NCBI GenBank assembly: GCA_029977205.1 | Contig: JAPOLI010000013.1 | Span: 1 to 42,844, forward strand | Length of the DNA stretch: 42,844 bases | Origin: a bacterium | GTDB taxonomy: Bacteria; Actinomycetota; Thermoleophilia; Miltoncostaeales; Miltoncostaeaceae | Direction of reading: 5' to 3' | Shown here: one piece after another, positions 4,686 to 23,549 of the stretch | Numbering within the stretch: position 1 is the first letter of the stretch | Layout: every line of letters starts with the position of its first letter | Notes under the pieces: generated by a model | What the model was told of the DNA's origin: nothing | Seen by the model: only the letters and a program-made list of their open reading frames with translations | The model's database searches: none | Position numbers and translations under genes: made by a program

Positions 4686-4769
4686 AAAAAGGCGCTCCGA
4701 GCACCCCCGGTGCCTGGCACCGGGGGTGCTCGGAGCGGGGAAACCCGCACGGCCTCGCGGCCGTGCGGG
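4686..4769 (-). terminator. Tandem intrinsic terminators of the sdh operon
   Basis: For minus-strand transcripts leaving the sdh operon there are two strong hairpins. The first to be transcribed is an 11-bp stem (4744-4754 with 4759-4769, loop TCGC), followed by UUU. The second is a 22-bp perfect stem (4693-4714 with 4716-4737) with almost no loop, followed by a run of five U (complement of A at 4686-4690). This is the clearest intrinsic terminator in the left half. Confidence 0.85.
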
Positions 4770-20774: not shown

Positions 20775-21350
20775 ATGGCCGGTCGTACCGCGATGAACCC
20801 CGCGCTGGCCGTCACCGCGGCCCGGATCGCCCTGATCCCCGTGGTGATGGTGCTCATCCTCATCGACGACGAGGGCGGGCGATACTGGGCGTTCGCCCTC
20901 TACGTGGTGGCCGCGGCGACGGACACCCTTGATGGCTGGCTCGCCCGCTCGCGTGGCGAGGTCACGGTGGCGGGCGCCTTCCTCGATCCGCTGGCCGACA
21001 AGCTGCTGGTCACCGGTGCCCTCCTCTGCCTGATCGAGGTCGGCGAGGTATCGGCATGGGTCGCCATGGTGATCATCACGCGCGAGTTCGCGGTCACCGG
21101 CCTGCGCCTCGTCGCGGTTCGTGAGGACCTCGTGATTCCCGCGAGCAACCTCGGCAAGCTCAAGACACTCAGCCAGAACGTGGCCATCGCGTGGGTGATC
21201 CTGCACATCGCTCCGCAGTGGCAGTACGACGCCCTGCTGTACCTGGCCGTCGCGCTCACCGTCATCTCGGGCGCCTACTACTTCATCATGGCGCGGCGCC
21301 GGCTCTTCGAGGGCCGTGTCCCCGCCCCCGACGCCACCGGAGATCCGTGA
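20775..21350 (+). CDS. pgsA: CDP-diacylglycerol-glycerol-3-phosphate 3-phosphatidyltransferase
   Basis: Makes phosphatidylglycerol phosphate from CDP-diacylglycerol and glycerol-3-phosphate in the cytoplasmic membrane. The 191-residue protein has several membrane segments and the full CDP-alcohol phosphatidyltransferase signature: DTLDGWLARS, then GAFLDPLADK with four metal-binding aspartates. The family includes other CDP-alcohol transferases, but length and the partner gene favour PgsA. The last four bases (GTGA) are shared with the plsY start, so the two phospholipid genes are co-translated. Confidence 0.9.
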   Translation: MAGRTAMNPALAVTAARIALIPVVMVLILIDDEGGRYWAFALYVVAAATDTLDGWLARSRGEVTVAGAFLDPLADKLLVTGALLCLIEVGEVSAWVAMVIITREFAVTGLRLVAVREDLVIPASNLGKLKTLSQNVAIAWVILHIAPQWQYDALLYLAVALTVISGAYYFIMARRRLFEGRVPAPDATGDP

Positions 21351-21955
21351 ACCAGGCTCTCGTCCTCGTCATCGCATACCTGCTGGGGTCCATCCCCTTT
21401 GCCTATCTGGCCGGCCGCCTCAATGGCGTCGACCTGCGCACAGTCGGCAGCGGCAACCTCGGCGCCACGAACGTGTTCCGCACGCTCGGGCGCACGGTCG
21501 GGGTCACCGTCATGGTGCTCGACATCGCCAAGGGCGCGTTCGCGGTGCTCATCGCCCAGTGGGTCGTCGGCGGGCCCTGGTGGCCCATCGCCGCCGGCGC
21601 GCTGGCGATCCTCGGGCACGTCTTTCCGGTGTGGACCGGCTTTCGCGGGGGCAAGGGCGTGGCCGTCGGCGCCGGTGCGCTGCTCGGCCTCGTGCCCGCG
21701 GCGAGCGGCACGCTGATCGTGCTCTGGCTCCTGATCGTCGTGCTCACCCGCTACGTCTCGGTGGCCAGCATCGCGTGCGCCGTCGCCGCCGCCCCGCTCG
21801 CCTGGGCCTTTGGCGCGCCCTGGCCGTACGTGGTCTTCATTGGTCTCGCGGGGCTCTTTGTCATCGTCAGGCACCGCCAGAACATCGTGCGTCTCCTCGG
21901 CGGCACCGAGAACCGCATCCAGCTCGGCCGCAAGGGCGCGCCGGATCCCACCTGA
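21347..21955 (+). CDS. plsY: Acyl-phosphate:glycerol-3-phosphate acyltransferase
   Basis: First acylation step of phospholipid synthesis, using acyl phosphate. A 202-residue polytopic membrane protein with the conserved PlsY loops GSGNLGATNVFRTLG (motif 1), GHVFPVWTGFRGGKGVA (motif 2) and HRQNIVRLLGGTENRI (motif 3). I chose the GTG at 21347 because it overlaps the pgsA stop and gives the standard N terminus; a longer open frame upstream is a shadow of pgsA. A long palindromic element follows within 30 bases. Confidence 0.94.
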   Translation: MNQALVLVIAYLLGSIPFAYLAGRLNGVDLRTVGSGNLGATNVFRTLGRTVGVTVMVLDIAKGAFAVLIAQWVVGGPWWPIAAGALAILGHVFPVWTGFRGGKGVAVGAGALLGLVPAASGTLIVLWLLIVVLTRYVSVASIACAVAAAPLAWAFGAPWPYVVFIGLAGLFVIVRHRQNIVRLLGGTENRIQLGRKGAPDPT

Positions 21956-21981
21956 GTCGCATCGCCCCGCGCTGTCGCGAC

Positions 21982-22185
21982 GCCCGGGGTTCAGCAGTAC
22001 CCCCGCCGAACACGCACGAGAGACAGCAGGCCCGTCACATCGGGGTGGCGGCGATCGCAGCCGGGGATGATGCATGTGCGGCCCCCGCACATGCCAATCC
22101 CGTTTCGGCGAGTGGCCGCCACCCCGGTGTGACGGGCGTGCTGCACTGCTGCGCTACTCGGAGGAGGTCGTGCTGAACCCCGGGC
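21982..22185. repeat. 204-nt nested palindrome (foldback element), unknown type
   Basis: Three inverted repeats share one centre near 22083.5. The outer arms 21982-21996 and 22171-22185 pair perfectly (15 bp). The middle arms 22024-22052 and 22115-22143 pair over 29 positions with one G-G mismatch and one G-T. The inner arms 22072-22081 and 22085-22094 pair perfectly (10 bp, loop CCC). The segments between are partly complementary, for example about 10 of 13 positions next to the outer arms. As RNA it would form one rod of about 100 bp. It lies between convergent plsY and folE2. No transposase, target-site duplication or U tract is visible. Candidates: a miniature foldback transposon, an old inverted duplication, or a structured RNA that also terminates both genes. 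Confidence 0.85.
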
Positions 22186-22209
22186 CCGCCCGGCGCGAGG
22201 CGCTGCGGC

Positions 22210-23199
22210 TCAGGTGCCGCCGTCGAGCCATTCGGCGAGGCTGAGGTGACGGGCGGCGTGCTGGCCGCCGGCGACCTCAGCGCGCATCTCCCCGAGTAGG
22301 CCGTGGCGCCCGGCCTCGACGTCGTGGGTGTGGATCGTCTCGTAGTTCTCCTGGTGCGCGGAGACGAAGGCGCCGTCGGGCAGATCGGGGAAGCGCTCGA
22401 TCAGCCCCGCGATCATCTCGCGCACGGAGTCCTCGACGAAGCGCGGGCGCCGGTGGGCCCGGTCGACCACGTACAGCTCATCGGGGCGCTTGAGGAGTTC
22501 GTAGATCTCCGAGGACATGCCGTCCTCCACGATCTCGATGAGCGTATCGGCGGCCACCTCGCGGCCGTCGGGGCTGCCCACGATCAGGGTTCCGCGCGCC
22601 CGCTGGTTGTGGGTGGCGACGGGCACGCGGGCGATGATCCGGTCGATTTCCTCCGAGGTGAAGCCGTCATCTGCGAGGGCCGCCTCGGCCTGTTCGCGCA
22701 CAAGGCCCTGGGCGCACGGGCACGCGTTCATCCCCTGGGCCGACACGCCGACCGCTCGCCGGCTGCTGCCGACGCGCGCGGCGGCGGTACCGATGAGGCC
22801 ATACATCTCCTGCGTGGCCACGTCGGTCACGGGCGTGCGCTTCTCCACCGGGTACCGGGCCCGGATGGTGGCCATGCCCCGGACGGCGCCCTGGCGCTCG
22901 ACGACGCAGCGGGCGATGTCCTCGGCGAGCGCTTCGATGGCCACGGCCTCGTCGATGAGCACCGAGTCGATGGCCTCATTGACCTCCTCCTCGAAGCGCG
23001 ACATGTGGACGCCCTTCTGGTCGGGGTCGAGGTCCACGACGCACTCGACCGTTGCGTCCATGTAGTGCTCCGACCCGCCGAAGGCCAGGCGGATCGCCTT
23101 GGCCGAACGCGACACGCCCGCGCTCGACAGGCCGATGCGCGTGGCTGGGGAGGCCTCCTGGAGGTCCTCGGAGAATTCGATGGGGTGGTTGCTGGTCAT
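22210..23199 (-). CDS. folE2: GTP cyclohydrolase FolE2 (type IB)
   Basis: Converts GTP to 7,8-dihydroneopterin triphosphate for folate or related pterins. The 329-residue length is usual for GCYH-IB. Features include the metal-ligand cysteine region MNACPCAQGLVREQ, the THNQRARGTL histidine segment and a C-terminal SAHQENYETIHTHD stretch. I chose the ATG at 23199 (MTSNHPIEF), with GAGGAC about 7 nt before it; an upstream start would add 24 Arg-rich residues. It follows bolA and grxD with an 11-nt gap, so it is the third gene of that operon. FolE2 enzymes can use metals other than zinc. Confidence 0.92.
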   Translation of the reverse strand: MTSNHPIEFSEDLQEASPATRIGLSSAGVSRSAKAIRLAFGGSEHYMDATVECVVDLDPDQKGVHMSRFEEEVNEAIDSVLIDEAVAIEALAEDIARCVVERQGAVRGMATIRARYPVEKRTPVTDVATQEMYGLIGTAAARVGSSRRAVGVSAQGMNACPCAQGLVREQAEAALADDGFTSEEIDRIIARVPVATHNQRARGTLIVGSPDGREVAADTLIEIVEDGMSSEIYELLKRPDELYVVDRAHRRPRFVEDSVREMIAGLIERFPDLPDGAFVSAHQENYETIHTHDVEAGRHGLLGEMRAEVAGGQHAARHLSLAEWLDGGT

Positions 23200-23210
23200 G
23201 CGCGCTGTCC

Positions 23211-23549
23211 TCAGGCGGGCAGCATCTGCTGCAACTCGCCGTCCTGGAAGAGTTCGGTGACGATGTCGCATCCGCCCACCAGCGTGCCGTCGACGAAGAG
23301 CTGGGGGATCGTCGGCCAGTCGGACCAGCCGGAGAGCACCATGCGCACGCGAGGGTCCTCGAGGATGTTGCGCGCGCCGTACTCGACGCCGAGGTGATCG
23401 AGGATCTGCACGACGCGCATCGAGAACCCGCAGGCCGGCGCGTCGGGCGTGCCCTTCATGTAGAGGAACACGCGGTTGGCCGCGACCTCCGCCTTGATCT
23501 GGTCGAGGATCTGCTCCTCGGTCATCGTGCTGACGTCGCTGCTCATCAT
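23211..23549 (-). CDS. grxD: Monothiol glutaredoxin (CGFS type, Grx4/GrxD)
   Basis: A 112-residue monothiol glutaredoxin with the active-site motif CGFS in APACGFSMRVVQ and the downstream WPTIPQLFVDG (cis-Pro) and GGCDI glutathione-binding segments. CGFS glutaredoxins hold [2Fe-2S] clusters with glutathione and partner with BolA. Here the ATGATG start overlaps the bolA stop, and folE2 follows. As mycothiol-type actinobacteria lack glutathione in many lineages, the thiol used here is open. Confidence 0.93.
   Translation of the reverse strand: MMSSDVSTMTEEQILDQIKAEVAANRVFLYMKGTPDAPACGFSMRVVQILDHLGVEYGARNILEDPRVRMVLSGWSDWPTIPQLFVDGTLVGGCDIVTELFQDGELQQMLPA

Follow-up and report, generated by a model that had tools for sequence, protein, structure and literature searches.

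A stop-to-stop palindrome between plsY and folE2

The window that we analyzed is a 42,844-nt stretch of DNA from a Miltoncostaeaceae genome of 1.71 Mb in 116 contigs. In it, plsY (positions 21341 to 21955, forward strand; TIGR00023, 183 bits against a cut-off of 137) converges on a gene for a folE2/mptA-type GTP cyclohydrolase (22210 to 23271, reverse strand; TIGR00294, 265 bits against a cut-off of 220), and a palindrome lies between them. With small indels allowed, its halves align as inverted copies over 260 nt (21953 to 22212), from the stop codon of plsY (TGA, 21953 to 21955) to that of folE2 (TCA, 22210 to 22212). A first-pass annotation of the window had drawn this palindrome slightly too short, at 21982 to 22185, but had correctly recognized three inverted repeats on one shared center near 22083.5, including a 15-bp perfect run within the outer arm. 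On the forward strand, the outer arms (21982 to 22009 and 22158 to 22185; 28 nt, 86% complementary) and the main arms (22024 to 22052 and 22115 to 22143; 29 nt, 93%, locus-specific outside ~22042) are both centered on 22083.5, and the apical 10-bp hairpin GCATGTGCGG-CCC-CCGCACATGC (22072 to 22094, pairing 22072 to 22081 with 22085 to 22094) is centered within half a base of it.

The earlier description of two inverted 100-bp halves holds for the arms but not for two asymmetric zones, which are the conserved zones of the palindrome. The outer zone is a loop with a left side (~22010 to 22023) related to GAAAAAGCGCGAGAGGCGG in other species and a right side (22144 to 22157) related to CCGCACTGCTGTGGTTATC; 2 of its 14 positions pair symmetrically. 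The tip-proximal zone consists of GATCGCAGCCGGGGATGAT on the left (22053 to 22071), which is nearly invariant in family-A copies, and CAATCCCGTTTCGGCGAGTG on the right (22095 to 22114). An 85-nt core (22042 to 22126) is common to all copies of the family described below and scores 105 bits (E = 4e-22) with our covariance model, R1. At plsY-folE2, palindromes running from stop to stop with species-specific outer sequence are also found in genomes G006, G007, G015, G018, and G019, and all five keep the outer asymmetric loop, as does a 200-nt element of G001 and G006.

Folded as RNA, the palindrome reached −157.7 kcal/mol (z = −14.0), which none of 200 shuffles equaled; the opposite strand gave z = −13.0. 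The best symmetric pairing was 69 of 135, compared with 55 ± 2.4 in shuffles (shuffle maximum, 64). A chance palindrome or assembly artifact has a negligible probability. Palindromes do give fold-back contig ends in this genus (contigs L102 and L103), but the present one is internal to a 42.8-kb contig and asymmetric, and several independent studies yielded MAGs that contain copies. That recovery, the fold z score, the matches in multiple genomes, and the covariation among family-A copies together refute this explanation.

We agree with the first-pass annotation that the palindrome encodes no protein and has no obvious target-site duplication; none is visible, with the empty sites at hand being too diverged for exact alignment. 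Integron attC boxes (RYYYAAC/GTTRRRY) do not occur between 21949 and 22218.

A repeat family confined to one genus

BLAST against the genome itself, a check proposed in the first-pass annotation, found the central 70 to 95 nt at five further places, so that the family has copies at six places in all. These copies share the asymmetric core, and their outer arms are palindromic yet different at each place. At E ≤ 0.001, a search of 80 related genomes yielded copies in 17 of the 19 other members of the genus (G009 was marginal) and in 0 of 61 genomes outside it. Covariance model R1, built on the 85-nt core, matched 17 of the 20 genus genomes, with 1 to 13 matches in each; G008, G009, and G014 had no match. 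Over 149 Thermoleophilia genomes, 0 of the 133 outside the genus were matched. Both the core and the pairing of this dispersed palindromic element are conserved among relatives. The earlier concern that the palindrome might be single copy with unconserved pairing fails because the element is multicopy and its pairing is conserved.

A core-pattern scan of 84,980 species genomes returned 49 contigs, all from MAGs; none comes from beyond this genus, as far as the labels (some evidently wrong) and a kinship search show. The pattern was absent from viral, phage, and plasmid collections. The host genus is a single genus of Miltoncostaeales (Thermoleophilia), uncultured lake actinobacteria. The first-pass annotation knew of no described family that matches. 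No Rfam model reached its gathering score, and only the miRNA hairpin models MIR1437, MIR839, and MIR904 appeared, far below cut-off. In the parts of the literature available to us, no paper combines Miltoncostaeales with palindromic elements, and those mentioning Miltoncostaea concern other topics.

Grouped by flanking DNA, the ~91 copies fall into ~15 intergenic positions, most of them common to several species (up to 13). By simple ORF calling plus Pfam, the flanking pairs include radical SAM/YCII, sigma-70/MOSC, ftsH/folP, and HPPK/DUF2469; further flanking genes are S8 peptidase/glutathione peroxidase, fructosamine kinase/chlorite dismutase, integrase/metallophosphatase, BioY/dnaK, and Lon. 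Neighboring genes are arranged in all orientations, with convergent pairs common, and most copies sit 3′ of genes. At the divergent ettA/trx pair, the palindrome ends at CCTAGAGG/CCTCTAGG, plausibly a symmetric pair of −10 boxes (promoters and genes were read by eye), and both genes are apparently leaderless. On contigs L110 (around 2538) and L291, ettA and trx are divergent, and −10-like boxes (TAGGCT) stand symmetrically at both ends of the palindrome.

The element is thus multicopy, intergenic, palindromic, noncoding, and lineage restricted, as is expected of an interspersed palindromic repeat, but it is not conserved as a whole unit: the 85-nt core alone is common to the copies, and the arms differ by locus. 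Some within-genome drift is visible in the apical stem, where CATGTG/CACATG occurs in four of the six G000 copies and is rare elsewhere.

A role as a bidirectional terminator of transcription, or as a protector of mRNA ends, between convergent genes is unlikely. Stop-to-stop symmetry would suit such a role, as would the convergent arrangement (by simple ORF calling) at plsY/folE2, radical SAM/YCII, fructosamine kinase/chlorite dismutase, and integrase/metallophosphatase. However, an intrinsic terminator with a T tract (a G+C-rich hairpin followed by a T run) was found on neither strand of the palindrome, the stems are much longer than those of terminators, and the conserved asymmetric tip is not needed for termination. 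Copies also lie between codirectional genes and upstream of the divergent ettA/trx pair, and the genes abut in species that have no element.

Paired stems that change rapidly

Stem pairing statistics were computed on 30 family-A copies. Among these, 98.9% of stem cells pair (83.2% when shuffled), 166 cells are changed on both sides (45 when shuffled), and the covariation score is 0.383 compared with 0.084 ± 0.009; slid structures reach at most 47% pairing. RNAalifold recovered only the tip from an alignment of mixed subfamilies because these are out of register, and the analysis was redone on family A. The stems are locus and species specific, yet 93 to 99% complementary, with double-sided changes at most of the variable pairs. 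The stems of five species at locus VI are unrelated to one another, and each is self-complementary. Within-copy arm identity exceeded between-species identity at 8 of 13 loci, was tied at 1, and was lower at 4, in a comparison using a fixed window that often overran the arms. A diverged inverted duplication, proposed in the first-pass annotation, fits the arms well, but their apparent continual rehomogenization goes beyond simple divergence.

Across all arms, 3,043 positions are paired and 232 are mismatched. On the core strand, G·T and T·G mismatches (49) are as frequent as A·C and C·A mismatches (52; binomial P = 0.84), and few pairs in the family-A pair table are of G-U type. Insertion of the core into preexisting palindromes was considered and rejected: long hairpins otherwise occur at 0 to 1.5 per 100 kb in these genomes and are too rare to provide a pool of ready-made sites.

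Core inversions and empty sites

Between species, the core is opposite in direction at 8 of 12 orthologous loci. At plsY-folE2, it runs one way in G000, G007, and G013 and the other way in G011, G015, G018, and G019. Some core inversions may be assembly flips, which may contribute at contig ends. Four contigs (L102, L103, L226, and L231) end in long near-perfect fold-backs through such elements; these ends are probably assembly artifacts and may reflect mixtures of orientations in the sampled population. L102 and L103 appear to be a single G006 locus assembled twice as fold-backs: one is flanked on each side by ettA, and the other is flanked on each side by the gene that neighbors ettA in G003 and G010. 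The plsY-folE2 cases in G000, G007, G018, and G019 lie inside contigs, and such flips do not explain them.

Several orthologous positions are empty. In G009 and G014, 15 to 17 nt separate the stops of plsY and folE2; in G002, G003, G010, and G017, the two stops abut. The ettA-trx spacer of G014 is 53 nt long and has no hairpin, and the radical SAM-YCII spacer of G018 is ~60 nt long. At this last position in G000, G005, and G019, species-specific inverted sequence lies on both sides and extends from the spacer through the TGA into the last sense codon. The radical SAM protein ends in NTPA* in G000, G005, G011, and G019, where GCC TGA C is an inverted copy of the YCII end; elsewhere it ends in NTAV* (G007), NTGV* (G016), or NTAVE* (G018), and the YCII end is stable between species. 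The inverted copy at this locus passes through both stop codons and has altered the last residues of the protein, a pattern to be expected if one flank were copied in inverted form across the hairpin.

Covariation is normally taken as proof of a functional RNA. A structured RNA (a leader, small RNA, or rod-like 3′ untranslated region) whose pairing is maintained by transcript-level selection would account for the very strong covariation, the conserved internal loops, and the position of most copies 3′ of genes. We nevertheless regard it as improbable, and of the options raised in the first-pass annotation, it proved the weakest supported: G·U pairs are not in excess over A·C mismatches on the core strand, the core is frequently flipped in place, the ettA-trx copy lies upstream of both divergent genes, sister species have the same genes with no element, and Rfam offers nothing beyond subthreshold miRNA hairpins. 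The combination of strong covariation with in-place inversion, no extra G-U, and a locus upstream of both genes points instead to a DNA copying process.

Proposed template switching around a constrained tip

Our preferred reading, to which we assign a probability of roughly 60%, is a genus-restricted, noncoding, interspersed palindromic DNA element in which template switching during replication homogenizes, extends, and flips the arms about a constrained core. Published work attributes both arm homogenization and spacer inversion to template switching between the arms of an inverted repeat (PMC8604942), and the origin and upkeep of hairpin stems have been proposed to depend on it as well (PMC8794818). 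Both hallmarks of a template-switched quasipalindrome were found here in species-level comparisons of MAGs, that is, between species and not within a strain. With a conserved asymmetric hairpin tip of ~85 nt in a gene-to-gene spacer, the nascent strand would, during replication of one arm, switch template to the complementary arm. Such a switch would homogenize the arms and turn substitutions into matched pairs, would occasionally flip the tip in place, and would copy one flank outward in inverted form as far as a selected sequence, such as a stop codon or −10 box. Matched double changes, missing G-U intermediates, inversions, and outward reach would all be explained in one step. This mechanism is suggested by sequence comparison.

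Template switching of this kind would not account for the survival of the asymmetric segments, which must be constrained, because it would otherwise erase them. Subfamily B, which is found mainly at ettA-trx and is conserved there in about ten species, argues for constraint in place beyond mere recopying between loci. A protein that recognizes the tip in hairpin or cruciform form may be what constrains the internal loops. We tentatively suggest that the tip is a DNA hairpin or cruciform recognition site for a dedicated protein of the host or element, acting in chromosome organization or element movement. Such a protein would need just the tip, internal loops included, and any perfect stem, which would leave the stem sequence free to be rewritten by template switching. 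The data require no host function other than constraint on the tip.

Probable dispersal of the tip and comparison with known repeats

The dispersal of copies and the existence of empty sites suggest mobility, with loss possible at single loci, and a trans-acting factor probably dispersed the tip, along with the related 200-nt version, in the past. The first-pass proposal of a foldback mini-transposon was right as to a dispersed, nonautonomous repeat, but terminal repeats and a linked transposase are absent, no target-site duplication is visible, and the ends are variable. Movement of a REP/BIME- or MITE-type element by a transposase of the HUH (RAYT/IS200) or DDE type that targets its ends seems doubtful. 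The element is dispersed, intergenic, and palindromic, copies of the 200-nt G006-type form at several loci of G001 and G006 are 92 to 96% identical, and 11 of the 20 genus genomes have one or two Y1_Tnp (RAYT-like) genes (e.g., L243, at G000:C62 52291 to 52617). However, the ends are the variable, locus-specific part of the element and do not form conserved terminal inverted repeats, and no target-site duplication was seen. Y1_Tnp is absent from G007, G013, G015, and G019, which have 9 to 13 copies each, and present in G014, which has none; the four Y1_Tnp loci that we read contain none of these elements. A RAYT link through PF01797 was rejected, there being no correlation with the element and no nearby copies.

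The best reading is that the element is an interspersed palindromic repeat of an ERIC/YPAL-like kind that belongs to no known family and is notable for a conserved tip on self-templating arms. ERIC (127 bp) and YPAL/RU-2 (about 168 bp) of enterobacteria are likewise lineage restricted, intergenic, multicopy, nonautonomous, and 100 to 200 bp long (PMC2759123). They share whole repeat units, whereas the Miltoncostaeales element shares its tip only and has locus- and species-specific arms; the likeness drawn here is one of kind. REP/BIME elements with RAYT (Y1 transposase) are also small dispersed extragenic palindromes, but REPs are mostly 20 to 50 nt (PMC12306157), in comparison with 85 to 260 nt here, where copies are few and uncorrelated with Y1_Tnp genes. 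Mitochondrial double-hairpin and repetitive hairpin-forming elements of fungi and sponges are, in the portions of the accounts available to us, similarly dispersed, intergenic, and without coding capacity (PMC4478555, PMC2800124); they are organellar, and the likeness noted here is a resemblance. Quasipalindrome template-switch hotspots show the same arm homogenization, spacer inversion, and double substitutions without G-U intermediates (PMC7202029, PMC8604942, PMC8794818), but they are single short inverted repeats, in contrast to a repeat family in which a constrained core would sustain the process through many species.

Read in this way, the family would be a natural, replicated record of arm-to-arm copying over about 20 species and 15 loci, reaching coding ends, and it raises the question of what keeps an asymmetric tip constant amid rewritten surroundings. 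If the tip is indeed recognized by a protein, this would be a kind of bacterial repeat undescribed in the papers searched, in which one arm templates the other and the palindrome grows to the gene borders. The family also calls for caution in RNA discovery and in MAG assembly, where such palindromes give fold-back contigs.

Related and separate hairpin repeats

At plsY-folE2, the palindrome of G006 resembles that of the window in its outer asymmetric loop and has a different tip. The 200-nt palindromic form of this G006 type is present at several loci of G001 and G006 (L226 to L232 and L192). By eye, CGCAGNCGG/TCGGCGAGT is common to the tip surroundings of the 85-nt-core family and of the G006 200-nt form. 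A third type, in G012, is apparently separate and forms tandem arrays in other species. A distinct hairpin repeat of ~100 nt (GCGCGGTTATCCCGTCGGTCGCGAATCGGAATCGCGA...) forms tandem arrays with a spacing of roughly 140 bp in many genus genomes; arrays lie at L222 (G004:C15 11918 to 12488), L223 (G003:C45 14803 to 15244), L224, and L225. The window itself contains, at 4693 to 4737, a perfect 22-bp palindrome, CGCTCCGAGCACCCCCGGTGCC-T-GGCACC.... Long hairpins with GGTGYCWGGCACTTAAC, akin to this palindrome, were seen at L262:8511–8577, L267:18335–18386, and L242:797–852, and the contig stretch that holds the last of these also has a Y1_Tnp gene; hairpins of this type are possibly a separate RAYT/REP-type family.
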